The notes beneath the pieces were generated by a model. It ran no database searches. It was not told where the DNA came from and saw only the letters and a program-made list of their open reading frames with translations. A stretch of 29,902 nucleotides of DNA from a virus, in the IMG/VR virus record IMGVR_UViG_3300044675_001458, positions 1 through 29,902 of that record; one strand, 5' to 3'. A program made the translations under genes and the position numbers. Positions 2,319 through 25,259 of this stretch are shown one piece after another (position 1 is the first letter of the stretch; each line of letters begins with the position of its first letter).

Positions 2319-2443
2319 TACGGATGCAGAATTCTTTTCTTTGTTTTATTCTTTACAATCAATGATATAATTTTATTACCAGCAACAAACACTTGCTTTG
2401 CGCTAGAAATAATTTTATATTTTTCAGTTAATTCTATTTTCAT
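2318..2443 (-). CDS. Small hypothetical protein, 41 aa
   Basis: This short ORF fills the gap between the 134-aa protein and the collagen fibre. It starts at an ATG (2443-2441) that overlaps the preceding stop as ATGA, and ends at a TAA (2320-2318) that overlaps the fibre start as TAATG. The product is basic and starts [17 protein letters not shown]. It has a hydrophobic beta-like stretch ([14 protein letters not shown]) and a basic tail ([11 protein letters not shown]). Precise coupling on both sides is the main argument that it is translated. No family is recognised. It lies in a late structural operon, so a virion-associated or fibre-assembly role is possible but only inferred. Confidence 0.6.
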
Positions 2444-2844
2444 CTAGTCACCTGTGCGGATGAATCAAATCTGCCATCAATTAATCGGACAATATTACCA
2501 CCAGTGATTGATGCTATCTGTAAGTCATAGACAAACTTACCAATAGGCATATTTTTCATTCCTGTACCAGTTCCTGTGAGGAGTATTCCTCCAGTGAATC
2601 CAGTAACTCCTGCGGTGGAGCAATTGAGGGTGATTCCCCCAAATCCTCCTGTCAACCCCACAGTAGCACCTCCAGGGCTTGATGTCCATACTGCAAGAAC
2701 ACCATCCATCTCATATGAACGGCGAACCTGCATCTTTGCGGTATAATTGGTGAGATCTACGGGAACTCCTTCTTCATCCATGTATCGAATATGAAGGAAG
2801 AAATCAGAACCCTGCTCGGCTGGAATATCGTAATTTGCTGACAT
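2440..2844 (-). CDS. Small virion protein, baseplate/collar-type beta-sandwich (putative)
   Basis: This 134-aa protein has an N-terminal pattern (AEQGSDFFLHIRYMDEEG, then VPVDLTNYTAKMQVRRS) typical of small phage structural proteins that resemble the N-terminal domain of upper-baseplate or collar proteins. In that pattern EQG is followed by beta strands, a D-G turn and 'vDLTgYtakmqvR'. The middle is rich in Gly and Thr (GGATVGLTGGFGG), and the end (VRLIDGRF) looks like beta strands. It has no signal peptide or membrane segment. The ATG is preceded by AGGAG, held in the loop of a hairpin. Its stop overlaps the 41-aa gene. It lies between the GT2 gene and the collagen fibre, so it may be an adaptor or companion of that fibre. 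The family match is from memory, so moderate confidence. Confidence 0.55.
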   Translation of the reverse strand: MSANYDIPAEQGSDFFLHIRYMDEEGVPVDLTNYTAKMQVRRSYEMDGVLAVWTSSPGGATVGLTGGFGGITLNCSTAGVTGFTGGILLTGTGTGMKNMPIGKFVYDLQIASITGGNIVRLIDGRFDSSAQVTR

Positions 2845-2867
2845 AGATTAGCTCCTAACTAATCTAT
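2843..2867 (-). promoter_or_regulatory. Start-site hairpin presenting the ribosome binding site
   Basis: On the minus strand ATAGATTAG (2867-2859) pairs perfectly with CTAATCTAT (2851-2843), with a 7-nt loop TTAGGAG. The loop is the Shine-Dalgarno sequence of the 134-aa gene, and the first two bases of its ATG (2844-2842) are in the stem. The hairpin begins 4 nt after the stop of the GT2 gene. It has no U-tract, so it is not an intrinsic terminator. A role in controlling or insulating translation of the structural gene is inferred. Confidence 0.6.
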
Positions 2868-2871
2868 TTAG

Positions 2872-4083
2872 TCAACGGCTAGATCGTTCTTTTTTCTTAA
2901 ATGCTTTAGGCTTTTCTTTTTGAACTTTTTTGACTTCTTGTCGCTTTTCTATCTTCTGATCTACTTGCTTCTTCTGTAGCTCGACGATTCCACGCTCATA
3001 TTCTTTTAGGTTGTTCTTGACTCGTTCGATCTCCGATGCTGGCAATAGATTGCGGTCTAGTAATGCTTTGCATGCATTATATCCAATCTCAATTTTACCC
3101 GCATAGAAGGCAGTGCTTCCGATTTCATCAAGAATTCCATACTTGTAGACATCATTATCAATGAACAGAATGTCTTCCTTTGGATATGGAATATCGGATG
3201 CCATTTTAGCAAACAGATAACACAATGCTGGTTTACCGTTCATACGATATATTCTAGCAATCTGATATAGAGGTTCTGCTCTGCTTGGTCTTGCAGCATA
3301 TGCATCCAAGAATGCTTGTTGGATCTCGATCCAAGGTTTGTTTTGAAGAGCACGGGATATTCCAATCCGGTATATTGAGTAGTAAGCTTCTTCTGGCCAG
3401 CCGCCCATTTCTACTCGTTTTACATATGCTGCTTCTGCCTTATCCCACTGATGTGAATCGAAGTAACTCTGTGCAAGATAGAACTGATATCGAATATTAG
3501 TCGGTTCAGTCAATAGAGCATTCTCTAGAGTCTCTGCATCTCTCTTATACTTCTCAATCGGATCTATGTCCTTATTTCTTGCTCCAAGAGTACGAGCTAC
3601 AACTCTATATCCACCTTCTAGACGAACAATGCTCGGAACCTTTCCTTCTTCTACTGTTGGATATTCATGAAGAACTCCAACGTATCTCCAATTAGTATTG
3701 GCTTTGAATATCTGAGTTCTCCACCAAGAGAAATCCATTCTTCCCATAAGGACAGCATAACCATCTGCATCCTTAATCTGATCTCTTGGGAGCTTACCCT
3801 CTAGATAATCATCTGCATCAATCATGTAGATATAATCTGTTTTACCGTTACATAGTTCTAATGCTTCTGTTCTGTTATGTCCAAAGCTAACCCACGGACG
3901 CTCATGAAGCTCGCCAGGAATGCCTTTTTCTGCGAAATAGTTCTTAATAAATTCTTGAGTTCCATCTGTTGAGCCAGTGTCAACAATAACCCAGTAATCA
4001 ATCTGATCATAGATTGTATCAAAGCACTCTTTAATAATGTGAGTTTCATTTTTGACGATCATAGACAAACATAATTTTGACAT
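2872..4083 (-). CDS. Family 2 glycosyltransferase with TPR-like C-terminal region
   Basis: This 403-aa protein starts with a GT2 fold: LCLSMIVKNE at the N-terminus, VDTGSTDGT at about residues 34-42 and a metal-binding DADD at 89-92. About 130 residues of helical repeats follow (for example YQFYLAQSYFDSHQWDKAEAAY, split around 200-220), resembling TPR units. The protein ends in a lysine-rich tail (KEKPKAFKKKERSSR). GT2 enzymes with C-terminal TPRs usually transfer a nucleotide sugar to protein or lipid-linked acceptors. The ATG at 4083 is chosen over an upstream in-frame TTG (4089) because AAGGAG stands 8 nt before it. An exact late promoter is upstream and the fibre genes follow downstream, suggesting late expression and perhaps modification of virion proteins. 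The target is unknown. Confidence 0.85.
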   Translation of the reverse strand: MSKLCLSMIVKNETHIIKECFDTIYDQIDYWVIVDTGSTDGTQEFIKNYFAEKGIPGELHERPWVSFGHNRTEALELCNGKTDYIYMIDADDYLEGKLPRDQIKDADGYAVLMGRMDFSWWRTQIFKANTNWRYVGVLHEYPTVEEGKVPSIVRLEGGYRVVARTLGARNKDIDPIEKYKRDAETLENALLTEPTNIRYQFYLAQSYFDSHQWDKAEAAYVKRVEMGGWPEEAYYSIYRIGISRALQNKPWIEIQQAFLDAYAARPSRAEPLYQIARIYRMNGKPALCYLFAKMASDIPYPKEDILFIDNDVYKYGILDEIGSTAFYAGKIEIGYNACKALLDRNLLPASEIERVKNNLKEYERGIVELQKKQVDQKIEKRQEVKKVQKEKPKAFKKKERSSR

Positions 4084-4108
4084 ACACAAGACTCCTTAAG
4101 TTCAATTA

Positions 4109-4116
4109 TATTTATA
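4109..4116 (-). promoter_or_regulatory. T4-type late promoter (TATAAATA)
   Basis: An exact copy of the T4 late promoter element TATAAATA lies on the minus strand in the gap between the glycan island and the GT2 gene, 26 nt before the chosen ATG. The Shine-Dalgarno AAGGAG (4097-4092) follows it. gp55 is encoded in this window, so late promoters are expected. It would drive the GT2, 134-aa, 41-aa and fibre genes. Confidence 0.7.
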
Positions 4117-4146: not shown

Positions 4147-4578
4147 TTATAATATCTGTTTCATTTTAATTGGATAATTTGTGCATACTCCATATATTTT
4201 AGGCATACTTTTATATTCCAACTCAACAGTTACACCAGTTGAAACATAATGACCTGGATAGCACCAAGGAATTCCTTTACTAGTCAAAGTCATAACATCA
4301 GTTTGATGCCAAAACCAATTCAATTCTTTCATAGTACAAAGCCACTCAACTGCTTTTAAATTCTTTGCATGAATCCAAAGATTATTATACATCTTTAAAA
4401 GATAATCTTTAGTAACAGAATGTTCTGGTCTATCGTGTCCAAAATATAATTCATCTTCAAACCAAAGATCCACTTCAACATCAAATCCTACTGAAACACA
4501 TTCATCTATAGCCCATATATGGTTTTCTCTGGATAAATCTTGACCATATAAATTTGCACGGTGTGAAATGATTTTCAA
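4147..4578 (-). CDS. Short glycerophosphodiester phosphodiesterase-like protein
   Basis: The protein carries the motif series of the GDPD family: His-Arg close to the N-terminus (KIISHRAN), Glu-x-Asp (DVEVDLW), His-Asp (YFGHDRPE) and a later lysine strand (WIHAKN). These enzymes hydrolyse glycerophosphodiesters to glycerol-3-phosphate and an alcohol. At about 143 aa it is much shorter than usual members (roughly 230-300 aa), so the barrel is incomplete and activity is uncertain. No ATG precedes the first motif. Two TTG codons are available: 4611, which would overlap the upstream methyltransferase gene by 28 nt, and 4578, just after its stop. The latter gives the common 'MKIISHR' start and is preferred, though no clear Shine-Dalgarno is visible. 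It is the last gene of the glycan island. Confidence 0.65.
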   Translation of the reverse strand: MKIISHRANLYGQDLSRENHIWAIDECVSVGFDVEVDLWFEDELYFGHDRPEHSVTKDYLLKMYNNLWIHAKNLKAVEWLCTMKELNWFWHQTDVMTLTSKGIPWCYPGHYVSTGVTVELEYKSMPKIYGVCTNYPIKMKQIL

Positions 4579-4583
4579 TGTTT

Positions 4584-5279
4584 TTATTTCTGAACTTGGA
4601 ACCAAAGCCAATTTTTGTGATTATCACCAGGTCCCACTGGTCTTAGATCAGATGAATAATTATTAAATCCTATTTGTGTTAGATCATCTATTAAATTTTG
4701 TTCATCTTTAATACTAACATCATGGAATCCATTTGTTCCCCTGGCTTGATATTGATTTTCATGATATTCCGCAACAGCATCGGAATTAGTCTTTCCACCA
4801 TATCCCATTTGAGCGCAAAAATGACCACCTGGCTTTAAAACTCTATAAATTTCTTTCATTATTGAATATCTTATTTCATATACACAAATGTGTTGTAAAC
4901 ATATAACAGAAAAAATTAAATCATATTCTAAAGAATCTCTCGGAATATTATCACCTGATGTTATTAAGTAATTTGGAAAAGATATTCCATGTTCTTTTAA
5001 ATTTATTTCTGCTTTTTGTTTATTAACTTCCGATATATCAACAGCATCAATTCGCACAAATCTATTATTAAATTTGATTAAATTTCTACCAGGCCCAGCA
5101 CCATATTCAAGTGCTATCATATTTTGTGTGTTTATATTTTTAAACAAAAACTCATCATAATCAGTAAAACTATTATGTTGATCATAACTTCCCACAACAG
5201 GATCTCTGTTTTGAAGTGACCATCTATTGGCATCCCAATTATATTGTTTAGCCTGCATTTCTAAATATTGTTCTTTCAT
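4584..5279 (-). CDS. Class I SAM-dependent methyltransferase
   Basis: This 231-aa protein has a Rossmann-type methyltransferase core. Motif I is EYGAGPG (residues 58-64), the acidic end of strand 2 is in AVDIS (79-83), the motif IV region is YDLIFSVICLQH, and the post-motif is YRVLKPGGHF (146-155). This is the Methyltransf_11/25 layout found in small-molecule and sugar methyltransferases. No substrate-specific residue can be named. It begins 3 nt after the nucleotidyltransferase stop, with AGAAAG upstream, and is followed by the GDPD-like gene. Methylation of a sugar or an activated intermediate of the same island is the likely role. Confidence 0.8.
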   Translation of the reverse strand: MKEQYLEMQAKQYNWDANRWSLQNRDPVVGSYDQHNSFTDYDEFLFKNINTQNMIALEYGAGPGRNLIKFNNRFVRIDAVDISEVNKQKAEINLKEHGISFPNYLITSGDNIPRDSLEYDLIFSVICLQHICVYEIRYSIMKEIYRVLKPGGHFCAQMGYGGKTNSDAVAEYHENQYQARGTNGFHDVSIKDEQNLIDDLTQIGFNNYSSDLRPVGPGDNHKNWLWFQVQK

Positions 5280-5282
5280 AAT

Positions 5283-5996
5283 TTACTTTCTTTCCAAAAA
5301 GGAATTTAGATCTTCTGGTGTACCAATTCCATACATTTTATGAACAAAAAAAGGAATTAAAGTTTTACCACTTTCTATAAACTGATTATATACTGGAGCA
5401 ATATAAAATTCATTATTTGCTCTTATGTTTTTATTTATCATTTTTTCAGCACATTCAACAAAATCAAAACCTCGTCTATACCAATAAATTCCACAGGTTG
5501 CTATATTTGATATTGGAGTTTTTTCTGCAACTTCAACAACAACACCTCTTGTGTCTGTTTTAACAAAAGACCATTTTGGGTGAACTGCATTGAAACAAAA
5601 AACTATACCGTCTACATGAGAAAAAGACTTCAAGTATTTAAAATTTTCTGGAGAATATTCAATGATTTGATCTGAATTTGCTATGAGAAGATCGTCATCA
5701 GTATTAATGTAATCTTTTGCTAATAGCGCAGTACATGCGGCACCTTCTGTTAAACAATCAACTTCAACAATTTTAAATCTACCATTTGTTATTCTATCTA
5801 ATGTTAGATTTAATCCTTCATATTTTTGTAAATGTTCTTTTCGAACTAAAAAAATATATTCTGCATCAAAGTCCAAATTTTCAACAACTCGTTGAATCAT
5901 TGGTTTTCCTTCAACATCAATTAATGGCTTTGGGAAGGTATATCCTTCTTTGGAAAATCTACTTCCTTCACCTGCCATTGGTATCAATATCTTCAT
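5283..5996 (-). CDS. Sugar-phosphate nucleotidyltransferase
   Basis: This 237-aa protein belongs to the NTP_transferase family, which makes NDP-sugars or related NDP-alcohols. It starts MKILIPMAGEGSRF, a glycine-rich signature that binds the nucleotide phosphates. PKPLIDVEGKPMI (22-34) holds the catalytic lysine region, and NSDQ (107-110) is the metal-binding position where many members have a Gly-x-Asp. The ATG at 5996 is preferred to an upstream ATG (6023) because AGGAA precedes it by 4-5 nt and the glycine signature starts close to it. This also removes an overlap with the preceding gene. Members of this subtype occur in O-antigen and capsule clusters next to HAD phosphatases, as here. The sugar and the nucleotide cannot be told. 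Confidence 0.85.
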   Translation of the reverse strand: MKILIPMAGEGSRFSKEGYTFPKPLIDVEGKPMIQRVVENLDFDAEYIFLVRKEHLQKYEGLNLTLDRITNGRFKIVEVDCLTEGAACTALLAKDYINTDDDLLIANSDQIIEYSPENFKYLKSFSHVDGIVFCFNAVHPKWSFVKTDTRGVVVEVAEKTPISNIATCGIYWYRRGFDFVECAEKMINKNIRANNEFYIAPVYNQFIESGKTLIPFFVHKMYGIGTPEDLNSFLERK

Positions 5997-6009
5997 AAAT
6001 TTCCTTAAT

Positions 6010-6723
6010 TTAAATTTGAACACTTTCTAGATTATTATTAGAACGAACCAATCCATTTCTATAAGCCTTCAACCAAACAACATCGCTTAAATTAAATTGT
6101 TTTAGATATGCGTGTTTTTTATATTCTTCGGCTGTAAATATTGGAATTTTTTCAGAAATGTTATCAATATAATCTATAACATTAAATGCGGCGTGGTATT
6201 TACTACCACATACAAAAGTAATATCTGTCCAGTGTGAATGATTTTTACCAAATAAATAGAACTTATTTGAATCTAATTCACTCAAATTAGGAAAATTTTC
6301 TAAAAAAGCATCAAATCTAGTTACTAATAAAAAATCATATTGTTGTGACTCTACCAAATTAACCGCGTTCCAAAATGATGTTAAGTGTGATAATAAATTA
6401 TTTTCATTATTTTTGCTATAATACGATAGATTTTTTACCTTTTCTCTGCTGTTGTCGGATAATAAAAATTTTCTAGGTTTCTCAAAAACATGTTTCTTGG
6501 GGCTATACATCTTTAATAATTGTTTAGCAGAATCTTGTTTTTCGTTTAAATTATAACTTAATGCCCAATCAGAAGCATCCATCTTGGCTTCGGTTTCGCT
6601 GATCCAACTGTGGATAAAAACATCGGCGTTATATTGTTCTTTTATATTATTATAAGAAGAATAAACATATTCATTATCTAAAAATCTTGGTTGTCCATAA
6701 AAACATATTGCTAATGAAGGCAT
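6010..6723 (-). CDS. Putative glycosyltransferase-like protein, GQxR family
   Basis: The 237-aa product has no signal or membrane segment. It starts SLAICFYGQPRF, then has ADVFIHSW (33-40), and TRFDAF (135-140) at the end of a strand. The same three blocks (Gly-Gln-x-Arg, Asp-Val-Phe-x-His-x-Trp, Arg-Phe-Asp) appear in the protein at 7332-8009, so the two are paralogues. Such proteins occur in polysaccharide clusters of bacteria and viruses and look like GT-A-type transferases in which RFD could stand for the DxD motif, but I know of no biochemical proof. Its ATG follows the HAD stop directly (TAAATG) with GGAG upstream. It lies between HAD and nucleotidyltransferase genes. Function is inferred from context. 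Confidence 0.6.
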   Translation of the reverse strand: MPSLAICFYGQPRFLDNEYVYSSYNNIKEQYNADVFIHSWISETEAKMDASDWALSYNLNEKQDSAKQLLKMYSPKKHVFEKPRKFLLSDNSREKVKNLSYYSKNNENNLLSHLTSFWNAVNLVESQQYDFLLVTRFDAFLENFPNLSELDSNKFYLFGKNHSHWTDITFVCGSKYHAAFNVIDYIDNISEKIPIFTAEEYKKHAYLKQFNLSDVVWLKAYRNGLVRSNNNLESVQI

Positions 6724-7341
6724 TTAATATTTCTCCAAAAATGAATGATAGTTTTCTATTGTAACATCTTTAGGACAATTTACTGTCCATAAATATTTAA
6801 CTTTACTTTCTTTAGCTGCTTCTATTCCTTTTGGTGAATCTTCTACACAAAGAGATGTATTTGGATTACTATTAAGTTTTTGTATAGCATAATCATAACA
6901 AACTGGATGAGGTTTATTTGGATACACATCTTCATTTGTGACCAATAAATCTATATAATTTAATTGCCCAGTTTTAGATAACATTAATTCCGCAGTTTCT
7001 CTTATAGAATTTGTTACACATGCAATTTTTATATTTAAACCTTTTAAATATTCATGCAATTCTACTTTTTCTTGCATTATTTTTGCATTAACATGTATAG
7101 TGTCTAAAGTATGTTTTTGTTTATTTTTATTAATTTCATCAGATAAATGATCGGGAATACCAAGCATTTTTAATTTAACTTTGGTTGGTAGCCCATTATA
7201 TTTTGCTAAATGATCTTCTGTATTAATTATAGGATATCCCGCATCAGCTAATGCCAAATTTAATGCTTTATAGTGCCAATCACAAGCATCAACTAAAACA
7301 CCATCAAGATCAAATAAAATTGCTTCAATTTTTAATGCCAT
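6724..7341 (-). CDS. HAD-superfamily hydrolase (phosphatase/phosphoglucomutase type)
   Basis: This 205-aa protein contains all HAD motifs. AILFDLDGVLVD carries the nucleophile Asp11 and Asp13, ACVTNS (107-112) is motif II, NKPHP (142-146) holds the motif III lysine, and VEDSPKGIEAA (166-176) is the acidic motif IV. A helical cap lies between motifs I and II, as in the beta-phosphoglucomutase and phosphoglycolate phosphatase group. It is likely to remove or move a phosphate on a sugar phosphate, upstream of the nucleotidyltransferase two genes on. It overlaps the preceding gene by 10 nt. Whether it is a phosphatase or a mutase cannot be settled from sequence. Confidence 0.85.
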   Translation of the reverse strand: MALKIEAILFDLDGVLVDACDWHYKALNLALADAGYPIINTEDHLAKYNGLPTKVKLKMLGIPDHLSDEINKNKQKHTLDTIHVNAKIMQEKVELHEYLKGLNIKIACVTNSIRETAELMLSKTGQLNYIDLLVTNEDVYPNKPHPVCYDYAIQKLNSNPNTSLCVEDSPKGIEAAKESKVKYLWTVNCPKDVTIENYHSFLEKY

Positions 7342-8009
7342 CTTTTCATATCATTTCTAATAAGAGAGTGTTTTCCACAATTATATTCCCCATTCATGAA
7401 TGGAGGATTTAGACTAATATATTTTATTTTAGAAATACCATTATATTTATTTTTTGCTAAATGATACATTAAAAGATCTTCACCATTAACAACACATCCT
7501 TCAGAATGATATGAGTGTATATTGTTGTATACAGAAGAATACACATCCATATCATTTGGTCTTGCAATTGCAAACTGATCATGAACCTCTGTTGCTTCTG
7601 CATTAGAACGAGTATCGCAAAAATACATCTTAGTTCTATCTAATTGGTTAAAATCAATTTTGGTATTTAATGCAAAATCAAATCTGCTTCTAATTACCCA
7701 ATCATATTCTATTTTAGAATGTTTTCTAAGCATATCTGCATATGCAATTGATCTATACATCAATATTGTATTTCTAGCAGGATGACTATCCGAAACTATT
7801 CTGTAATTTGGAAAATTATCAAAAATAGAATCTTCTTCGATCAGTGCATCTTTTGGCTTATATAACTCTATAGCATTTCTGTCCCAATTTTTAGCCCATG
7901 TATGAAAAAATACATCAACATCATAATGATTTAATAAATTTTGTTTGATATATTTGTATCCTTCAGATACAGATCTAAGTTGTCCAGATAAAACTAATGC
8001 TATTTTCAT
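7332..8009 (-). CDS. Putative glycosyltransferase-like protein, GQxR family (second copy)
   Basis: This 225-aa product starts MKIALVLSGQLRSV and contains VDVFFHTW (31-38) and IRSRFDF (106-112), matching the blocks of the protein at 6010-6723. It continues with a conserved-looking stretch (HDQFAIARPNDMDVY) and GEDLLMYHL, a position that in many GT-A enzymes holds an acidic base. The ATG at 8009 is chosen because it overlaps the upstream stop as ATGA. An in-frame ATG at 8021 would add four residues and lacks a clear Shine-Dalgarno. The two copies flank the HAD gene, so they may add successive sugars. Function is inferred, not known. Confidence 0.6.
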   Translation of the reverse strand: MKIALVLSGQLRSVSEGYKYIKQNLLNHYDVDVFFHTWAKNWDRNAIELYKPKDALIEEDSIFDNFPNYRIVSDSHPARNTILMYRSIAYADMLRKHSKIEYDWVIRSRFDFALNTKIDFNQLDRTKMYFCDTRSNAEATEVHDQFAIARPNDMDVYSSVYNNIHSYHSEGCVVNGEDLLMYHLAKNKYNGISKIKYISLNPPFMNGEYNCGKHSLIRNDMKRWH

Positions 8010-8803
8010 GACAAATTCCATTTACTGGTGTCTATACGATCATATTGATGAATGATCGAAATAGAAGTTCCATCAATTTGTGGAATTAATGTTTCATCCC
8101 ATGTTGGCTTTTCTATGAGACTATCTCTAAATTTATGAACACCAACTGTCCCTAAATGAACCATGAGTCCAGCTGAAGGTCTAGTCATGGCAATATTTTC
8201 AGAACCAAATTTTGTTCCCATAATAATATTAAAAGAAGATTGATCAGAAACGCCAGCAGGGTTGTGGTAACACATAGTAAAAATCAGTAAGCAAAGATCA
8301 GCAACTGCTTCTACTGTGCCACAAAGAACACCAACATTACATATTTCATTGTTTTTGAATTCTTCATGAACATAACTAAATCCTTCCATCAGATTGCCAT
8401 TTCCCCAACTTTCATCTTTATAACATATAGATTCGCTGCCGCATACTATATCTTTTTTGGTTTTCTTCATTATAGAAAGAAGTTTAGGAAATGGATCATT
8501 TGCAAAATAAACATCTCTGCTGTCGGTTATAACAACATGAGAATACTTATCTTTCACGGACATCAAGTATTTGTATTGCAACAAAAATCTCATATCGTGA
8601 GGTAATTTATTTGTTTGTAGCTTATAACCAATTCCTGTTATGCCATTTTGTTCACAGCTTTTAATCACATCATCATTAGAATTTAGCAATAAATTGCAAA
8701 CATCGTGTCCTGTATCTTTAGCAGACATATTCCATCGTTTAATTGTATTCCAATCATAACCACTAGATGTTGACAGAAATAGTTTCTTTTTAGTTTCGCT
8801 CAT
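8006..8803 (-). CDS. Putative GT-A glycosyltransferase-like protein (DxRD motif)
   Basis: The 265-aa product shows an alternating strand-helix pattern and the block HVVITDSRDVYFANDPF (89-105). This resembles the DxD strand of nucleotide-sugar-dependent transferases, with Asp-x-Arg-Asp in place of DxD. A later block, FNIIMGTKFG, and a C-terminal MVHLGTVGVHKF with a histidine near a hydrophobic strand also fit this fold. No named family was recognised. The gene starts with ATG after AAGAAAGA. A candidate promoter with consensus hexamers overlaps the end of the preceding FkbM gene. Its stop overlaps the next gene as ATGA. Transferase function is supported mainly by the motif and by the surrounding cluster. 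Confidence 0.55.
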   Translation of the reverse strand: MSETKKKLFLSTSSGYDWNTIKRWNMSAKDTGHDVCNLLLNSNDDVIKSCEQNGITGIGYKLQTNKLPHDMRFLLQYKYLMSVKDKYSHVVITDSRDVYFANDPFPKLLSIMKKTKKDIVCGSESICYKDESWGNGNLMEGFSYVHEEFKNNEICNVGVLCGTVEAVADLCLLIFTMCYHNPAGVSDQSSFNIIMGTKFGSENIAMTRPSAGLMVHLGTVGVHKFRDSLIEKPTWDETLIPQIDGTSISIIHQYDRIDTSKWNLS

Positions 8804-8826
8804 AATAAATCTTTCTTAATGTATAA

Positions 8827-8853
8827 ATTATAGTTCAAATTGTGAAATGTCAA
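8827..8853 (-). promoter_or_regulatory. Candidate sigma70-type promoter inside the island
   Basis: On the minus strand TTGACA (8853-8848) is followed after 15 nt by TATAAT (8832-8827). Both hexamers are perfect, but the spacer is short. It overlaps the last codons of the FkbM gene, and transcription would start about 17 nt before the ATG at 8803. Part of the match is forced by coding sequence, so chance is possible. If active, it would give the second half of the island its own transcript. Confidence 0.4.
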
Positions 8854-9619
8854 TGGAAATTGGAGAATCTTGGTGAATTGCTACTGCATTGTTTCCTTTA
8901 TACTGAACATTATATTTATTCTTAGTTAAAAATAAATGTAGTGCATTTTTATCAGATTTAGAATGTTCAAAGTATATTGTTGGTTTAAATTTGTTGATCG
9001 AATGTTCTGCACCCATAAACACATCTTCTTCCATTCCTTCAACATCCACTTTTAATAGGTCTATTCGTTCAAGATTTAAAGAATCAACAGTTATAAGAGG
9101 AATTGAATATGAGTCTGAATAGTCTATGGCTTGACCTATCCATTCACCATTATCTCTTTTCTTAATCTCTAGACTGCCAAATGAACTATTTTTTGAATAA
9201 TCAACTGTAGGAACATTCATGCTTCCATTTTCTTTTCCTACAGCAACATTTTTAGCAGTAACATTAAAACAATTGTTGAGTGCTATAGATCCACATAAAG
9301 CATAATAAATGTATTCTTGTGCTTCAAATGCATATACATGTCCCCATTCAGACATTAATTGGGCCCACTCAATTGTATGAACACCAATATTAGCACCACA
9401 GTCAAGAGCAATAACACCATCACCAAAAACTTCTTTGTGCTGTGTTAATATCTGTTTAGTTAAATCAATTTCGGGCATATCGTAATAACCTCTTCTCATA
9501 ATTTGACTGCCAACGCCCCAAAATGGCATTAATTCATCAAATTTATTAAGAATAAGTTTTCCATGATGTGTTTGCATTACCTGAAAAGGTTGCATATTTC
9601 TGTTTGTTTTGTTTTTCAT
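8828..9619 (-). CDS. FkbM-family methyltransferase
   Basis: This 263-aa protein has the FkbM layout. Motif I is ALDCGANIGVHT (71-82), the strand-2 acidic end is YAFEAQ (96-101), and the family signature strand LLKVDVEGMEEDVFMGAE (188-205) is present, followed by TIYFEHS (214-220). FkbM proteins are SAM-dependent O-methyltransferases found in natural-product and surface-polysaccharide clusters, where they usually methylate a sugar hydroxyl. The N-terminal 60 residues are an extra segment with no clear motif. It lies between a GT25 gene and a DxRD transferase-like gene, so methylation of the cluster's glycan is a fair inference. The acceptor is unknown. Confidence 0.88.
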   Translation of the reverse strand: MKNKTNRNMQPFQVMQTHHGKLILNKFDELMPFWGVGSQIMRRGYYDMPEIDLTKQILTQHKEVFGDGVIALDCGANIGVHTIEWAQLMSEWGHVYAFEAQEYIYYALCGSIALNNCFNVTAKNVAVGKENGSMNVPTVDYSKNSSFGSLEIKKRDNGEWIGQAIDYSDSYSIPLITVDSLNLERIDLLKVDVEGMEEDVFMGAEHSINKFKPTIYFEHSKSDKNALHLFLTKNKYNVQYKGNNAVAIHQDSPISIDISQFEL

Positions 9620-9632
9620 AAAATATCCATAA

Positions 9633-10289
9633 TTAATTTACAATAGATTCGTCCCAATATTGACCACTTAAAGAAGAAGGATGATTTAAACTTTGTGTTG
9701 CTAGGGGTGGCTGAAACCAATAATTGTTTAAAGAAAATTTCTTTACAAGGTAGTTATAATAGTGGTCTGATGGGAGATATACATTTGAGATTTCATTACA
9801 AACCTTCTGTGCAAATCTATTGCTTATACAAAAAGCATGAGTGCATCTAGAACCTCTGTCTGTTTTATAAACATTTACATTGGGAACTTGTGGTTCTCGA
9901 AGATTAAAACAACTACCGACCCAACCAATATCCCAATCTTCTGCCATTTGAGACTTATATTTGTTAAAATGTTTTATAAAATTTTTGCATAATACTGCAT
10001 CATCTTCTAATACCAATACTGATGAATACTTCTTTTCTAACATATCTTTAATTATCCAGACATGTTTAAGAGTTAAAGATTTCTCAGCAGATGTCATTTT
10101 ATTTTCTGGATGATTAATCATTGGATATTGTATAGAAATTGATAAATTGTCTATAGTATCTTTATCATAATGTTCCACAAACTGATAATTAGTTATACCA
10201 AGATCTTGTAGCTGTTTTAGTATAAATTGTTTTCTATCTGTTAGTTTAGAATAATGGCAAACATAGATTTGATCTACATGCATTTTCAT
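9633..10289 (-). CDS. Family 25 (LPS-type) glycosyltransferase
   Basis: The 218-aa product fits glycosyltransferase family 25. It has an N-terminal strand (QIYVCHYSKLTDRKQFI), the block SAEKSLTLKHVWII (67-80), where the family has G-x-x-x-C/S-x-x-S-H, and VLVLEDDA (91-98) as metal-binding acidic motif. A later LPSDHYYNYLV resembles the family's conserved 'p..D.yl'. GT25 enzymes include LPS galactosyltransferases such as LgtB and LpsA. The ATG overlaps the preceding stop as ATGA. A second GT25 is encoded at 11820-12584, so the cluster may add two similar linkages. Confidence 0.8.
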   Translation of the reverse strand: MKMHVDQIYVCHYSKLTDRKQFILKQLQDLGITNYQFVEHYDKDTIDNLSISIQYPMINHPENKMTSAEKSLTLKHVWIIKDMLEKKYSSVLVLEDDAVLCKNFIKHFNKYKSQMAEDWDIGWVGSCFNLREPQVPNVNVYKTDRGSRCTHAFCISNRFAQKVCNEISNVYLPSDHYYNYLVKKFSLNNYWFQPPLATQSLNHPSSLSGQYWDESIVN

Positions 10290-10972
10290 AAAGAATCTAT
10301 AACTTTCTTTGTTTGTTGTTCATCTCTCCAGTGTTTTTTATCTGTATATAATACATCGGACTCTGGGTGCCTAAAGTGAACATATCCATGATAATCCCAA
10401 AGATATGCCCTTGTCTTTGTTGTATCTTTATTATGATTGATAAATTCATCAGTTTTTGTGTAGATGTCATTATCCTTAAAATATTCTTTAATTGACTGAG
10501 AATATACAACAGGACCAGTTAATTCTAAAATATCATTTGTTGTTTTGTTTGTTATATTGAAGATACACTTTTCAATACAAATTTTTAAAATCTCATGATT
10601 GGGTGGATAAATTAAACACCACTGAGCAAATTTTCCATAGTTTTTTTCTCTACTAATAATTGCACAATCATCGATTATTAATTCATCTAATTTGCCATAG
10701 ATTACAGAATCTATATCCAAATAAACACCACCATGTTTAAATAAAATAAGATATCTCCATAAATCTGCTTTTGCAGCACCAACTGTTAGTGATTTATATG
10801 CCAAATAAATAGTTTGATTAAAGTTACTTTTAATAAACTCATCAATATCAGTATCATCATATAACTGATATGAATAATTAGGATTTTGTTCCATCATCAA
10901 ATTTATAGCATTTTGAATTGGTTCTGGTATATCTTTTTTGTACCAAGTTTGATAAATTATTTTTGGTATCAT
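10286..10972 (-). CDS. GT32/OCH1-like glycosyltransferase with DXD motif
   Basis: The 228-aa product begins IPKIIYQTWYKKDIPEPI, the usual start of the 'glycosyltransferase sugar-binding region containing DXD' family. It carries AAKADLWRYLILFKHGG (66-82) followed by VYLDIDSV (83-90), where Asp-Ile-Asp is the DXD metal and nucleotide-sugar site. The C-terminus has a conserved WRD-type end (KHWRDEQQ). Relatives include yeast OCH1 mannosyltransferase and bacterial capsule galactosyl- and mannosyltransferases. Sugar specificity cannot be read. It overlaps both neighbours by 4 nt, so it is translated as part of the same operon. Confidence 0.88.
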   Translation of the reverse strand: MIPKIIYQTWYKKDIPEPIQNAINLMMEQNPNYSYQLYDDTDIDEFIKSNFNQTIYLAYKSLTVGAAKADLWRYLILFKHGGVYLDIDSVIYGKLDELIIDDCAIISREKNYGKFAQWCLIYPPNHEILKICIEKCIFNITNKTTNDILELTGPVVYSQSIKEYFKDNDIYTKTDEFINHNKDTTKTRAYLWDYHGYVHFRHPESDVLYTDKKHWRDEQQTKKVIDSL

Positions 10973-11817
10973 AGTAATCTACATGCAATTTGTTTGCACA
11001 TTCCTTCCATCGAGAAGTACTCATTATACAATTTATGTGCAGTCTTTACCATTTTTTCTATTTGTTTATCAGAATAGCTGGACAATATTTCTTCTAAATC
11101 ATTTATCTGTTCTGGTTTAATCAATACACAAAATTCTGACCAATCTAATTCATCAGACCATGGTAAATAATGAGAGTCAGAAATATAAACTGGCACAGAA
11201 CCTAATTGCATGGTTTCATATAATCTAAAACTACTTTTTCCATATCCTCGTGGACATAGAGTAAATTTACTTTTACATGTAAGAGTTTTAAATAGTGTTA
11301 AATTCTTTTTTGGAACACTTGCTGCCCAATGCTGCTGAAACGAAAAAATAAAATCTTCATGATTTCCCCATTTTTGTAATAAATTATTTCTTATTGGGTG
11401 TGTCATTGATCCAACAAACGAACAAAGAATTGTCTTAGACTCATTGATAAACTTATCAGTAACCCTAGAACATATTAATGGAATGGGAATAATATTTCCT
11501 TGAGTCCTATTACCACCAGCAGAAAAAATTAATGTATCTGTTGGTAATTTTTCCATAGGTCCATCATCATGTTGGCATATAGTAAAATACTTTTTATTAG
11601 TATCAATACTATTTAAATGTGATTGAATATCTATTGACGCAACTCCATTTGCTGCATTGCAGTAAATATTTGTCCAGAAAATATCGATGTATTCTCTATC
11701 GATGTCTGTTTTATTTTCTTTCCACCAATTAGAAAAATATTCTTCCAAATAAAAACCAGTATGATATGGTGGATATACTGGATATACGGCAGGAGGTCTT
11801 AATTTATCAGTAAACAT
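10969..11817 (-). CDS. Exostosin-type (GT47-like) glycosyltransferase
   Basis: The 282-aa product has the exostosin signature at about residues 186-214: TLCPRGYGKSSFRLYE, then TMQLGSVPVYISD. Here a charged start is followed by a Gly-x-x-Pro-Val strand that binds the nucleotide part. An upstream FVGSMTHPIRNNLL matches the usual 'F.G....(R)' segment of the same family. The N-terminal 80 residues are rich in aromatic residues. In bacteria and phages such proteins sit in capsule or O-antigen clusters, and the sugar is unknown. Its start codon is 2 nt from the preceding stop, and its stop overlaps the next gene by 4 nt. Confidence 0.85.
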   Translation of the reverse strand: MFTDKLRPPAVYPVYPPYHTGFYLEEYFSNWWKENKTDIDREYIDIFWTNIYCNAANGVASIDIQSHLNSIDTNKKYFTICQHDDGPMEKLPTDTLIFSAGGNRTQGNIIPIPLICSRVTDKFINESKTILCSFVGSMTHPIRNNLLQKWGNHEDFIFSFQQHWAASVPKKNLTLFKTLTCKSKFTLCPRGYGKSSFRLYETMQLGSVPVYISDSHYLPWSDELDWSEFCVLIKPEQINDLEEILSSYSDKQIEKMVKTAHKLYNEYFSMEGMCKQIACRLL

Positions 11818-11819
11818 AA

Positions 11820-12584
11820 TTATCCCGTAATAAATTTAATGTTATCAATATATTCAACGAGTTGATCTGGCACATCATAATGAATTTCAGTTTGTACATT
11901 TTCATTTAATTTAACTTGAATGTAGTTTGGACACAGAAAAGTAACTAACCCAGATTGAATACATCTGCCAATAAAATTATCAACGGGATTAAAAAGTTGA
12001 TATTGTTTAACAAGTTCAACTAATTTTCTTGCTCCAGAATTGGTAACAATATATCCAGTTGTTCCCTCCGTTGTTTCCCAATCAAATACTCCAGGTTTCA
12101 TACTAATATTCATTCTATCTGTTGTTTTATTAAATTGTGATTTCCCTTTTGGAAAATTAGGAGAAACGCTTTGACATATTACCATATCGATGTTATCTAA
12201 ATTTTCTTCATTGGCAAATCTTTGTATTTCTTTTCCACTAAAATCTGGATCAGCATCATCTTCCAGTATAAAATATGCTTTTTTATTACTATTAATTAAA
12301 TCTAACCAAAGCAAATAATGGCTAAAGAAACAACCAACTTCACCTATTTTCATCCATCCCCGCACAGAAAACGCATCACCAATTTTCATATTGGTATTTA
12401 AATCAACACACAAATCTTTATAACAAAATGTTTTGTTATTTCTTGTTATATTTGTTTTATCAGCAGCATCAAAAAAATCAAAAGAAATGTTTTTTGATTT
12501 TAAATTGTCTTGTATTTGGTTTCTTCGAGGAGAACCAATTCTACTAATAACTTTAACTTGCAATTCATTATTTAAATAAACCAT
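11820..12584 (-). CDS. Family 25 glycosyltransferase (second copy)
   Basis: The 254-aa product has the full GT25 order. VKVISRIGSPRRNQI is the N-terminal strand with paired arginines, FDFFDAAD (35-42) follows, then GEVGCFFSHYLLW (81-93), the family's G-x-x-x-C-x-x-S-H block, and YFILEDDA (104-111), the acidic motif. A C-terminal TGYIVTNSGARKLV and PVDNFIGRC match the rest of the family. This is a clearer member than the one at 9633-10289. The ATG follows AGGAAAATCT and overlaps the preceding gene by 13 nt. It is likely to transfer a hexose to an LPS-like or protein-bound acceptor. Confidence 0.87.
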   Translation of the reverse strand: MVYLNNELQVKVISRIGSPRRNQIQDNLKSKNISFDFFDAADKTNITRNNKTFCYKDLCVDLNTNMKIGDAFSVRGWMKIGEVGCFFSHYLLWLDLINSNKKAYFILEDDADPDFSGKEIQRFANEENLDNIDMVICQSVSPNFPKGKSQFNKTTDRMNISMKPGVFDWETTEGTTGYIVTNSGARKLVELVKQYQLFNPVDNFIGRCIQSGLVTFLCPNYIQVKLNENVQTEIHYDVPDQLVEYIDNIKFITG

Positions 12585-13252
12585 AGATTTTCCTGTTTAA
12601 ATTTATTTATTTTAGTATCAATACCAACCATATGGTTATTATGAACTATAACTGCATTTAATTTTTCCCCCAGAGTATAATACACATACCCATTTGGAAA
12701 TACTTTTTGGTTCAATAATGCACATTCTTTTGCATATTCTGGTGTGCTTTGAATAATATTATTAATTAAAATTTGATCATCTTCGTCTATATTACTACCA
12801 CAAATACGAACTATAGCTTCACTAGCTGGTGTGTTATTAAACACCATAAATCCAGAACAAATAATAGAACCTGGAATATCACATTGGAATAATGTTTTGT
12901 CACTGTTCTCAATAAATTTCATCGGGTTTTGTATAAAAACAATGTCAGTATCAACCCAGCATAATGACTTATACTGTTCATGAATCTGGGAAATAAGTTT
13001 CCATTTTGACTTAACTATTTTTCTAAAATTACTATTAGGATCAAACGACCAATCTTGATATCCAGTTAGATTATTGTTTTCATAATCTCCATATAAAAAC
13101 GCACCGGGATAAGTTTTTAATCCCTCATATGAATCTTTGTCCAAACATGCAATGATAAAATCATCAGTATTGAGTCCGACAATTTTGGCGGATTTTAACA
13201 TATTCTTGCATATTTCCAAACACCCAGAATTAAGTTGAGTTAAAAATTTCAT
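12572..13252 (-). CDS. Nucleotide-diphospho-sugar transferase (GT77-like)
   Basis: The 226-aa product has the layout of the Nucleotid_trans family. SKWKLISQIHEQYKSLCWVD leads into DTDIVFIQNP (101-110), where Asp-Thr-Asp is the DXD site. GFMVFNNTP lies in the middle, and there is a C-terminal histidine strand (VIVHNNHMVGIDTKINKF) with the usual HxN/G-x-x-x-K shape. The ATG at 13252 is preferred to an in-frame GTG at 13267 because GGAG stands 9 nt upstream and the ATG overlaps the preceding stop as ATGA. A related gene is at 14091-14750. Sugar and acceptor are unknown. Confidence 0.75.
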   Translation of the reverse strand: MKFLTQLNSGCLEICKNMLKSAKIVGLNTDDFIIACLDKDSYEGLKTYPGAFLYGDYENNNLTGYQDWSFDPNSNFRKIVKSKWKLISQIHEQYKSLCWVDTDIVFIQNPMKFIENSDKTLFQCDIPGSIICSGFMVFNNTPASEAIVRICGSNIDEDDQILINNIIQSTPEYAKECALLNQKVFPNGYVYYTLGEKLNAVIVHNNHMVGIDTKINKFKQENLWFI

Positions 13253-14094
13253 TGCATTAGTCTCCACAAAGTATCATCTGCCATTTCTAAGTTCATAACT
13301 CGATTGAAATTCTCATGAACTGCGTTTAGTTTAGACTGATATAGTTCAGTAGTCAAACTATTAATATTAAATTGTGAATCTAAAACTATAATGCCATTGA
13401 TATCAAACACATCACCTATTGTTGGGCTTCCCAAATAAACAGGTATAGTTCCTGTTGCAAAACAATCGGTGATCTTTTCTGTATAGTAGTTGTCGTAGAA
13501 GTCATTCTCAACAACAACAGAAAACATATAATCCTTAAGACCATACATCTTACTCATCCAAGGTTTAGTTGGATCTGTATCAGGAAGACGAGGAGAACCA
13601 CAAGCACCACCAAAAAGGTCTAGATGATCTTTAAATCGTTCTGCATACCCATGACGAATCATATGTCCTTTAGTAATTCGTTTAGCAGACGCAACCATGC
13701 TTACTAATTTAGTTTTAGGGTATACTGAATACTGACTCTCAGGTATCCAAGGTAAATTACTGCCAGCTGAGCAATAGTGAAACACCGAAGACAAACTCAC
13801 TAGCTGTTTATCTGAGACAAATATGCGTTTAAATTTGTTTTCTAATTCTTTATAATTTTTAGCCAAAAAAATTGAAGTATCAGAAACAATAGAACGAGAC
13901 TCACATACCCAGCCATATAGATTATTCACCTCAATAGGAATTGAATCGTAATGAGGTATTGCATTGTCTATTAATACCAATGTATTTAAATTTTGATGTG
14001 GTGGAATTTCCCATTGAAAATTTTTTGGTTTGCGCGTAGAGCAAGAAGAGTGCTGAGGCTCAAACGGAAATCCCAATCCATATAAAATATTCAT
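13249..14094 (-). CDS. Family 10 glycosyltransferase (alpha-1,3/4-fucosyltransferase-like)
   Basis: The 281-aa product carries the GT10 C-terminal donor-binding domain at about 188-222: DYMFSVVVENDFYDNYYTEK, followed by ITDCFATGTIPVYLGSP. This matches the fucosyltransferase signature with FxxxxEN, YxTEK and the G-x-x-P-V/I-Y-x-G loop. An upstream SAKRITKGHMIRH with basic residues also fits. GT10 enzymes such as the Helicobacter pylori FucT use GDP-fucose. No GDP-fucose synthesis genes are visible in the window, so the donor would come from the host or from elsewhere in the phage genome. It overlaps both neighbours as ATGA. Confidence 0.85.
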   Translation of the reverse strand: MNILYGLGFPFEPQHSSCSTRKPKNFQWEIPPHQNLNTLVLIDNAIPHYDSIPIEVNNLYGWVCESRSIVSDTSIFLAKNYKELENKFKRIFVSDKQLVSLSSVFHYCSAGSNLPWIPESQYSVYPKTKLVSMVASAKRITKGHMIRHGYAERFKDHLDLFGGACGSPRLPDTDPTKPWMSKMYGLKDYMFSVVVENDFYDNYYTEKITDCFATGTIPVYLGSPTIGDVFDINGIIVLDSQFNINSLTTELYQSKLNAVHENFNRVMNLEMADDTLWRLMQ

Positions 14095-14750
14095 GAATTA
14101 ACTCGTAAGAAAGAATCACCAGGCGATTGCCACTCGATCAGCTCGTCGTTATATCCCATGCTTTTGAGTACTTCTTTTTTAGATGGCATATCAGATAATC
14201 CCATCATGAGTACCGTATTAGCAGTCTGAGCGCCAGGCCATTGGCAATATTCTTCTCCAAGAATAGCGATCTTCTTTTCTTTGAGATACTTACCCAAGCA
14301 GTGTAAAAAAGTTTCATGATCAAATAGATTGCCCTTAAGTGTTTTGACTTTTTGACATTCATCTATCCATGTTTTAACAAATTGTAAAGTCTCAATATTA
14401 TAATTGAACCAAATAGGAGATGCTTTGATTCGCACCAAATTGTTTACATCAGTAGATGCAACTGCAATGTTTACACCCAAAGTACTCAAGTTCTCAAATG
14501 CAACAGGTGGTTTGCATATGTAAGTGTCGATATCTAACCACATTAGTGGTTTCTTATGTTCCATTAACTTTGAGTATATGAAGCTAGGTTTAATTAGGCA
14601 ATTACTTTGATAACTACCTTGCGATTCGAGATGCACCACATCATATGGCAAAGAAAAACGAGTACATTCTTCAATGAATCGCTTTGCATGGTCGCTGTAG
14701 TATGTTTTTTCGTCTACATCACAAAAATAACTTATCACTTGAGTTTGCAT
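14091..14750 (-). CDS. Nucleotide-diphospho-sugar transferase-like protein (GT77-like)
   Basis: This 219-aa product is the first gene of the glycan island, beginning 11 nt after the regA stop. CLIKPSFIYSKLMEHKKPLM leads into WLDIDTYICKPP (71-82), with Asp-Ile-Asp as DXD motif. TWIDECQ and DHETFLHCL follow, and near the C-terminus there is EEYCQWPG. This is the same general plan as the protein at 12572-13252. The island's tight coupling to regA suggests transcription from the replication operon upstream. No strong Shine-Dalgarno is placed before the ATG. Assignment to the family is good, but the sugar is unknown. Confidence 0.7.
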   Translation of the reverse strand: MQTQVISYFCDVDEKTYYSDHAKRFIEECTRFSLPYDVVHLESQGSYQSNCLIKPSFIYSKLMEHKKPLMWLDIDTYICKPPVAFENLSTLGVNIAVASTDVNNLVRIKASPIWFNYNIETLQFVKTWIDECQKVKTLKGNLFDHETFLHCLGKYLKEKKIAILGEEYCQWPGAQTANTVLMMGLSDMPSKKEVLKSMGYNDELIEWQSPGDSFLRVNS

Positions 14751-14760
14751 AATATAAAGA

Positions 14761-15207
14761 TTACTTTCCGATATGATACTTAGGAATTAATTCCCATTCC
14801 TTTTTTTCCTTATAAGGAATGATTTTCAACTGTGCAATACTAAGCTGATTGTCTTTGTATTTATCTGTCAATGGGGTGAGCAATCCCCATTCTGTTAAAA
14901 GTTTTACAATTGTATTTCGTCTTCCGATATCGCTTTCGCTAGTATCAGTCTCCAACCCATCAAGAGCTAAAAGCTCCTTGAAGTGAAGTATAACATACCT
15001 TCCCCGCTTATGCAAGATATGGCAGCTTTGATATAGTTTTTTTTCTACACGAGAAGAGACACCAATGCGCGTGAGAGTTTCTTTGACTTTAAGAAAGTCA
15101 TCCTCGTGCGCTAAACTGATTTCTACTCCATACCCCTCAAAAATATCTTCCGTGTGTTCCATAGTAAAACCATTTCTATAATAATCTGACCCTTTCATTC
15201 CAGGCAC
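14761..15207 (-). CDS. regA: RegA translational repressor
   Basis: The core from VEISLAHEDDFLKVKETLTR onward matches T4 RegA closely: YQSCHILHKRGRYVILHFKE, then the RRNTIVKLLTEWGLL region, then KKEWELIPKYHIGK at the C-terminus. RegA binds near the start codons of early mRNAs and blocks translation, including that of clamp and clamp-loader genes. The order 45-44-62-regA is the T4 order. The start is unsure. The frame opens with GTG (15207) and ATG (15198), giving about 25 residues before the T4-like N-terminus. ATG 15162 gives about 11. None has a good Shine-Dalgarno sequence. In T4-like genomes gene 43 usually follows; here the glycan island does. Confidence 0.95.
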   Translation of the reverse strand: MPGMKGSDYYRNGFTMEHTEDIFEGYGVEISLAHEDDFLKVKETLTRIGVSSRVEKKLYQSCHILHKRGRYVILHFKELLALDGLETDTSESDIGRRNTIVKLLTEWGLLTPLTDKYKDNQLSIAQLKIIPYKEKKEWELIPKYHIGK

Positions 15208-18353: not shown

Positions 18354-18381
18354 AGTATAGCAAGACACAAACTAATGTCAA
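18354..18381 (-). promoter_or_regulatory. Strong sigma70-type promoter for rnh
   Basis: On the minus strand TTGACA (18381-18376), a 16-nt spacer ending in TTGC, then TATACT (18359-18354), which forms an extended -10. Transcription would start about 18347, giving a 13-nt leader AAAGAGGTGCAAC before the ATT codon. The -35 overlaps the stop of the 110-aa gene. This is the best promoter match in the window. Confidence 0.75.
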
Positions 18382-18710
18382 TAGATATTAACCCATTGTT
18401 CACTGTTACCGTCGCTGAGATACTTGTATGTCTTTGCAGTAGCAAGATCAAACCACTCATCACCAACATTAGCCTTTATTGGTCGTGTGCCACCCCAATA
18501 AAAGCGAACACCCGCAACTCCTCCACCCTGTAGAGAAGTCCAACCACCAACCTCTCCGTGAGCAGGAGAAGTTTCTGTAACCATACGGTTTGCCACATAT
18601 GTGCTACCCTTATAAGTTACAGAATCTCCAATTTTATATTTAACAAGTTTGCCATCGGCATCGTATGCGCGATAAGCACCTTTAAAATTTAAATTATCAA
18701 TTGATGTCAT
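18378..18710 (-). CDS. Small virion-type protein with fibre-tip motif (putative)
   Basis: This 110-aa protein looks structural, unlike its replication neighbours. The first half (NLNFKGAYRAYDADGKLVKY, then IGDSVTYKGSTYVANR) resembles the carbohydrate-binding modules of phage tails and chitinases (CBM5/12-like), with 'G.Y.......Y..GD.V.y.G..Y.a'. The second half (FYWGGTRPIKANVGDEWFD, then AKTYKYLSDGNSEQWVNIY) is a motif common in tail fibres and recurs in the collagen fibre at about 590-710. The ATG overlaps the preceding stop as ATGA and no Shine-Dalgarno is visible, so translation is probably coupled. Placement among DNA-metabolism genes is odd. Role inferred: minor virion or receptor-binding component. 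Confidence 0.6.
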   Translation of the reverse strand: MTSIDNLNFKGAYRAYDADGKLVKYKIGDSVTYKGSTYVANRMVTETSPAHGEVGGWTSLQGGGVAGVRFYWGGTRPIKANVGDEWFDLATAKTYKYLSDGNSEQWVNIY

Positions 18711-24972: not shown

Positions 24973-25259
24973 TTCTTATTCTTTCCTCGTTTAATGTTCT
25001 TTGTAGTAATGATAATACGAGCATAGTTTTCTTCTACTACAGTGCTGTCAATCGTAATTGATTCTACGATTACATCATCTACATCATTAACAGTATCAAG
25101 CAGTCTATCTCCAACCATAATACATGGACCGCCTTCGAAGTCAAACATCCCTTCGCCCCCTCTGCTGAACAAAGTACGTCCTTCGATGGTGTATGTTCCA
25201 TCATCGCGCTTTGTTATGATTCGGTCATCCCCATACCTAGATTTGAATTTCTTTACCAT
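24969..25259 (-). CDS. Conserved-type hypothetical protein, 96 aa
   Basis: A 96-aa protein located between gp55 and gp47, where other marine T4-like phages also encode a small unknown protein. It starts basic (MVKKFKSRYGDDRIITKRDD), has GTYTIEGRTLFSRGGEGMFD followed by FEGGPCIMVGD, a beta-rich pattern, and ends basic (TTKNIKRGKNKK). It resembles a small beta-barrel but no family is recognised. It is coupled on both sides: TAATG with gp55 and GTGA with gp47. It may assist one of these two, but this is only an inference from position. Confidence 0.75.
   Translation of the reverse strand: MVKKFKSRYGDDRIITKRDDGTYTIEGRTLFSRGGEGMFDFEGGPCIMVGDRLLDTVNDVDDVIVESITIDSTVVEENYARIIITTKNIKRGKNKK

Follow-up and report, generated by a model that had tools for sequence, protein, structure and literature searches.

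A late-type, fibre-linked glycosyltransferase of a T4-like virus and its possible role in decorating collagen-like tail fibres

Amongst the described systems, a close counterpart of the locus analysed here is SgtA of C. difficile, which the relevant sections of the published account present as a GT-A protein of 358 aa with TPRs at its C-terminus. Its gene directly precedes bclA3, and the enzyme is reported to transfer beta-O-linked GlcNAc from UDP-GlcNAc to threonine of collagen-repeat peptides and, in peptide variants, to serine (PMC7157674). Glycosylated virion proteins are also described for mycobacteriophages, where the glycans sit on capsid and tail tube subunits, at their C-terminal ends (Freeman 2023, as cited in a passage of PMC12619734). 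In pelagimyophages and cyanomyophages, tail fibres, collagen repeats and many glycosyltransferases occur together in a variable region, the host recognition cluster, which the corresponding passages of the source interpret as modifying the host O-chain (PMC7029224). Glycosyltransferase islands are a conspicuous, unexplained cargo of aquatic T4-like phages that has so far been read as a set of host-surface modifiers, and a search of open-licence PMC papers returned no report of a phage-encoded enzyme that glycosylates a phage collagen fibre. A further point of comparison is offered by SunS and ThuS, which glycosylate a cysteine of a secreted peptide, not a threonine.

The stretch of DNA analysed here (the window) is a single virus contig of 29,902 bases, record IMGVR_UViG_3300044675_001458, positions 1 to 29,902. 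Its capsid and late sigma factor are T4/cyanophage-like, with a gp23 up to 64.7% identical to those of Synechococcus phages. On the minus strand, T4-type replication genes are followed by RegA, a sugar island, the GT2-TPR gene, a small adaptor-like gene and a collagen-like fibre gene (Table 1); the order from the island to the fibre, together with the exact TATAAATA ahead of the transferase on the same strand, confirms what the original prediction had read from the window. The open reading frame of GT2-TPR extends over 2872-4089 (-), and its conserved start is the ATG at 4083. Judging by its family, the gp55-like sigma factor would be the machinery expected to read TATAAATA.

Table 1. Positions in the window of the features discussed in the text.
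Feature	Position	Strand	Remark
RegA	14761-15207	-	upstream of sugar island
Sugar island, 15 genes	4147-14750	-	between RegA and GT2-TPR
GT2-TPR glycosyltransferase, 403 aa	2872-4083	-	GT-A plus helical TPR-like domain
TATAAATA, T4-type late promoter motif	4109-4116	-	exact match; 25 nt before the GT2-TPR ATG
ACTAAATA, late-like motif	2865-2872	-	20 nt before the adaptor gene
Small beta-rich protein, probable fibre/baseplate adaptor	2440-2844	-	phrog_1084; weak match to L-shaped tail fibre assembly family
Collagen-like tail fibre, 772 aa, gene cut by contig end	3-2318	-	collagen triplet tracts
gp55-like late sigma factor	25259-25831	-	phrog_234, E 1.1e-57

As the SgtA/BclA3 pair is presented in the relevant sections of its description, it resembles this locus in architecture and gene order: both enzymes are soluble and combine an N-terminal GT-A domain with C-terminal TPRs, and both genes precede a gene for a Thr-rich collagen-like protein, with one small gene in between in the window (PMC7157674). 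It differs in being a cellular spore system, whereas the phage enzyme is encoded in a late-type fibre module, with the adaptor gene in between and the sugar island upstream. In the window's fibre, threonine occupies the Y position in 41 of the 63 triplets of the C-terminal part (residues 582-770) and in 4 of the 53 triplets of the charged N-terminal collagen part (residues 123-282). Compared with the mycobacteriophages, virion proteins of a phage are concerned in both cases, and the sites are here predicted on the collagen tracts of a T4-like fibre.

The GT2-TPR protein matches the GT2 family (PF00535) with an E-value of 1.6e-12, while its one TPR match, to TPR_17, falls just below the Pfam cut-off (23.4 vs 24.4 bits); TPR_17 matches at E 0.001 were obtained for 8 of 16 family members. 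AlphaFold2 predictions for these 16 members (pLDDT 88) feature a GT-A domain spanning about residues 1-162 and, C-terminal to it, a helical domain of TPR-like type (175-390), and the residues D35, D89-A-D91 (the DXD motif), W132 and H139-E140 are invariant amongst them. Comparison of the predicted fold with known structures using Foldseek and VIA-align placed SunS and ThuS at the top, aligned over both domains (7msp, Z 22.6, 266 aligned, rmsd 2.7, and 7msk, Z 21.9, 313 aligned, rmsd 7.4, respectively); the next matches cover a single domain only, with Z 16.5. Sequence searches returned ThuS (7msk, 4.5e-8), GmaR (1.9e-7) and SunS (7msp, 1e-5). The likeness to SunS and ThuS (7msn/7msp, 7msk) concerns the whole two-domain fold at Z about 22, but at 16-19% identity to the window enzyme, and no Cys leader peptide or export gene of the SunS/ThuS type was recognised in the ORF list of the window and the family lists, short peptides being covered only as far as these lists include them. 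Since SunS and ThuS are protein transferases, a protein acceptor is likely, and the earlier proposal that TPR-bearing GT2 enzymes can act on proteins is borne out to the extent that the predicted fold is of this protein-modifying type. Cultured phages yielded no close relative of GT2-TPR; the best of 9 weak records is Tunturi_5 at 36.8%, where a tail fibre gene whose collagen tract is Thr-rich lies at a distance of 3.7 kb. In a phylogenetic tree for which every second phage representative was taken, the 51 sampled phage proteins form one clade (support 1.0) with respect to 70 other sequences.

The original prediction rested on the octamer TATAAATA, which occurs twice in the window against 4.1 occurrences expected from shuffles and is thus not enriched. 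As the bare octamer therefore carries no meaning, its position and conservation were tested instead. Relatives were collected from IMG/VR as 16 loci, the best 80 of 463 relatives and 79 loci found via the small neighbour (80 of 121 kept). Dereplication at 95% protein identity reduced them to 102 clusters, and at least 60 nt of upstream sequence is available for 100; the window's own locus is left out of both numbers. Using a strict motif, NHTAAATA ending 8-35 nt before the start, and dinucleotide shuffles as the null, we found the motif ahead of GT2-TPR in 39 of the 100 dereplicated relatives listed, 16 of the 39 being exact TATAAATA, and no strict motif in the other 61; shuffled upstream regions gave a mean of 5.7 and a maximum of 11. 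The commonest gap between motif and start is 18 nt (16 of the 39), and the closest 20 relatives among the matches listed carry the motif in 16 cases. When a single start rule was applied to all genes, the motif preceded GT2-TPR in 38/100 cases, the adaptor in 43/72 and the collagen gene in 10/79, as against 5/96 for the gene at -1 and 20/471 for genes further on the island side. These counts indicate that the motif belongs to the transferase and the adaptor, not to the island. The copy ahead of the window's transferase is credible because of its strand, its distance from the ATG and its conservation in relatives, and the locus thereby combines the two marks of a T4-type late gene, a TATAAATA-type motif just ahead of the gene in the same orientation and, elsewhere in the window, a sigma factor of the gp55 type.

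The claim that TATAAATA splits the transferase from the island and ties it to the fibre operon can be upheld as far as the late-type promoter and the fibre linkage are concerned. A single operon does not follow from this, as the adaptor has its own ACTAAATA. The arrangement of motifs makes GT2-TPR the opening gene of a late-type block. In the surroundings of GT2-TPR, sigma-70-like promoters and terminators are no more frequent than in shuffles. An Rfam search of the window gave no match, so that a tRNA-Val (aac) called by ARAGORN at 4244-4336 (-), inside the ORF 4147-4611, is probably spurious. The window's other exact TATAAATA (18793-18800) lies inside a gene, 82 nt upstream of the following gene at 18378-18710 (-), whose product is small and fibre-like and matches CBM_5_12 weakly.

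To assess the linkage to the fibre more quantitatively, we analyzed the gene neighbourhood in the same relatives. Among 68 loci with at least 3 kb downstream, the adaptor follows in 51, in 44 of them at +1, and a collagen gene lies downstream in 44/68 but upstream in 0/87. Either gene is present anywhere downstream in 81 of the 102 clusters and absent in 12, the sequence being too short in 9. With the adaptor as the query, GT2-TPR lies upstream in 43 of 58 clusters and is the immediate neighbour in 32 of them; it is missing within about 6 kb in 9, and 6 clusters are undecided. For 3 of the 9 (L106, L113, L132) the contig carries GT2-TPR in another locus. For pairs of phages whose GT2-TPR proteins are 70-95% identical, a homologue of the +1 gene recurs on the same side in 107/148 cases and one of the -1 gene in 63/175. 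The nearest relative, L002, shows this at the DNA level: homology to the window begins 18 nt inside GT2-TPR and continues into the fibre over 2,866 columns at 93.8%, with no DNA homology on the island side, which places a recombination junction at the 5' end of the GT2-TPR gene. Judging by gene order and these alignments, GT2-TPR travels with the fibre module, not with the island.

The 12 clusters without the fibre module despite at least 3 kb downstream include L053, L063 and L064, where RegA is directly upstream and non-fibre genes follow; the L053 record has an adaptor and a collagen gene at another place. RegA stands immediately 5' of GT2-TPR in L025, L053, L059, L063 and L064, and in L053, L059 and L064 the fibre is replaced downstream by genes that we take to be dUTPase-like and MazG-like. 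A tblastn search for the adaptor in phage records gave no match. Its fold search returned generic beta-sandwich matches, two of them phage 80alpha baseplate chains, and we assign it to no family.

We compared 15 long records (77-157 kb, picked by length) that carry GT2-TPR with 15 T4-like isolates without a full-length GT2-TPR, taken from a 'spread' list (11 cyanophages and 4 others; one of the 15 has a 21.8-bit partial match). The long records encode the adaptor in 15/15, collagen in 14/15 and a (Gly-X-Thr)4 tract in 12/15, the tract not being found in G005, G008 and G012, which may be fragments; amongst the isolates collagen occurs in 3 and the tract in 2 (Fisher p 1e-4 and 7e-4, respectively, kinship and habitat not corrected for). 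Threonine makes up at least 40% of Y positions in 55/83 GT-linked collagens compared with 26/123 control viral collagens, which were found with a pattern needing GG codons and include 4 loci that matched the GT2 profile. About a quarter of the GT-linked collagens (22/83) have at most 8% Thr at Y, although in most cases the record in question carries Thr tracts at another place. A Lys/Glu-rich collagen type of near-constant length (about 55-59 triplets), with Thr at hardly any Y position, comes after GT2-TPR in about 20 loci (L016, L057, L060, L015, L073 and others). Bacterial collagens in any case commonly carry Thr at Y, at 31.6% on average (PMC8968730), and it is therefore not diagnostic; as the control viral collagens reach such values too, we rejected Thr-richness as sole proof of glycosylation.

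The gene neighbourhoods of the enzyme's cellular relatives provide independent evidence for the collagen link. The 62 cellular GT2-TPR loci analysed (best 48% identity) fall outside the sampled phage clade with full support. Seven of them (L300, L307, L308, L312, L321, L342, L346) have a Pfam-collagen gene on the same contig at a distance of 22-1,715 bp, and 55 have no confirmed collagen neighbour. Taking the chance of such a neighbour as about 0.01 per locus, which is our own estimate and not a fitted null, 0.6 of 62 would be expected (Poisson 3e-6). From the 62 loci, 12 genomes were chosen and searched, 9 for their Gly-X-Y neighbour and 3 as comparisons; in the mycobacterial genomes behind L307 and L308 (6.1 and 6.4 Mb) the neighbour is the only gene above the collagen cut-off. 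PGRS-like Gly-rich mycobacterial neighbours (e.g. L330, L311, L299) and the Gly-Ala-Gln-rich ORFs of L319, L322, L327, L338, L344 and L357 were left out of the collagen count. Mycobacterial GT2-TPR genes, sometimes in tandem, adjoin very Gly-rich PGRS-like or collagen-like proteins (L330, 4248-5981 and 5983-7413; L307, L308, L312), and it is possible that these neighbours are glycosylation targets of GT2-TPR. In L346, around 9482-10333 (G018:C26:93-5499), a collagen-like gene lies between two GT2-TPR genes, one of which has an internal TAA.

The sugar island comprises two GT25 proteins, GT32-type, GT47 and GT10 members and one of a nucleotide-diphospho-sugar transferase family, in addition to FkbM and class I methyltransferases, HAD and NTP-transferase-like proteins and genes of no recognised function. 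It had been suggested to supply the sugar donors. This is doubtful given that it consists mostly of transferases and has a single NTP-transferase-like and a single HAD gene, a content that suits elongation better than donor supply. Membrane segments are predicted in one of the 15 island proteins of the window (one segment) and in 9 of 624 island-side proteins across relatives (one each), with none in the remaining 14 and 615. The predictor is crude, but it assigned 6 segments to the E. coli O-antigen polymerase and 9 to the flippase used as controls; a multi-pass flippase, polymerase or GT-C protein, with at least two predicted segments, was found in 0/624, so that the locus lacks the hallmark of lipid-linked or O-antigen-modifying systems of the gtr/wzx type. 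A purely soluble pathway fits the building of a glycan on a cytoplasmic protein, although it could also be made up of soluble LPS-core enzymes. In other phages the gene at -1 belongs to an epimerase/dehydratase (nucleotide-sugar) family in 37/94 cases, is an aminotransferase in 11/94 and RegA in 5/94, the last meaning that the transferase can stand without an adjacent island. GT25 members occur amongst the collagen-glycosylating enzymes of animals and mimivirus, and the GT25 proteins at 9633-10289 and 11820-12584 (-) are a possible second link to the collagen fibre. As to the remaining island genes, the ORF 4147-4611 (-) belongs to phrog_34507 (function not assigned), with homologues at shifting island positions in L002, L003 and L006, like a mobile cassette gene, while 6010-6723 and 7332-8021 (-) both match phrog_13607, a duplicated family of no assigned function with the HAD gene in between.

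The gene, its fold class, the late-type motif, the linkage to fibre and collagen and the Thr tracts are read directly from sequence and model, and a late-type, fibre-linked protein glycosyltransferase is well supported. On the preferred reading, which we regard as rather probable, GT2-TPR would be produced late in infection along with the fibre proteins. It would act in the cytoplasm as a soluble protein O-glycosyltransferase, priming the fibre's Gly-X-Thr tracts for elongation by the island. Its GT-A domain would bind the nucleotide sugar and, through the DXD motif, a metal, while the acceptor chain would be held in the groove of the TPR domain. The first sugar would be placed on threonines, perhaps serines, of the Gly-X-Thr repeats before or during trimer assembly, and the soluble enzymes of the swappable island could then lengthen or cap it. 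A fibre modified in this way would bear a glycan specific to the lineage, with a more stable triple helix or altered fibre binding as possible effects. By analogy to SgtA, collagen threonine is the probable acceptor, and a role of the island as an elongation cassette is plausible. The idea that fibre or capsid is glycosylated in assembly thereby survives in one half: late-type promoter, fibre linkage, a SunS/ThuS-type fold and the fibre as likely acceptor are supported, and nothing found here points to gp23 or the capsid.

The enzyme would still be a virion-protein glycosyltransferase if its acceptor were the small adaptor or another fibre or baseplate protein in place of the collagen tract, a variant that we consider unlikely. 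The adaptor's presence in all 15 long records and its rank as commonest gene at +1, even next to collagens nearly devoid of Thr at Y, speak for it, as does the habit of SunS-type enzymes of acting on one specific peptide. Yet the 62 cellular loci gave 0 matches to the adaptor while 7 of them have a collagen neighbour, and the SgtA precedent works on collagen repeats.

Quite unlikely, in our view, is that enzyme and island alter the host surface polysaccharide (O-chain or lipooligosaccharide) and so block superinfection or re-adsorption. Such a role has been published, in the passages concerned, for the SAR11 phage host-recognition cluster with its glycosyltransferases and tail fibres (PMC7029224), from which the present locus differs in that promoter, gene order and recombination junction all link one of its transferases to the fibre. 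Island members do belong to LPS-type families such as GT25, and since soluble LPS-core transferases would need no flippase, this role keeps some probability although the 624 island-side proteins include no multi-pass protein. The top fold matches are protein transferases, the collagen association is found in bacteria too, and the promoter is of the late type, whereas exclusion genes would be expected early; modification of the host O-chain thus fits the GT2-TPR gene less well than it fits the island. That late motif and fibre neighbourhood are inherited accidents of a general metabolic or DNA-modifying glycosyltransferase is very improbable: three relatives do stand directly behind RegA and before non-fibre genes, and the single phage clade means that conservation is partly descent, but the motif spacing peaks at 18 nt though the upstream genes differ, and cellular genomes show an independent association with collagen.

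Priming of the fibre's collagen threonines by a late enzyme may extend beyond this virus. We put forward only tentatively that it is part of a widespread phage system, in which a late, fibre-linked SgtA-like enzyme primes the virion's collagen tails at their Gly-X-Thr repeats, and an exchangeable cassette of soluble enzymes builds a strain-specific oligosaccharide on these tails. Compared with the host-surface interpretation of such islands, this would shift the acceptor to the virion fibre and name the residue type, Thr at Y of the collagen triplets. If true, sugars may stabilise phage collagens or redirect them to other targets, and the glycans of the fibre, in addition to its sequence, would govern host range. 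The phage would then alter the sugar coat of its own fibre with a class of enzyme that bacteria use on collagen-like surface proteins. That GT2-TPR is paired with collagen in many of the phage's relatives, and also in a small number of bacteria, hints at a phage that adds sugars to its own fibres.
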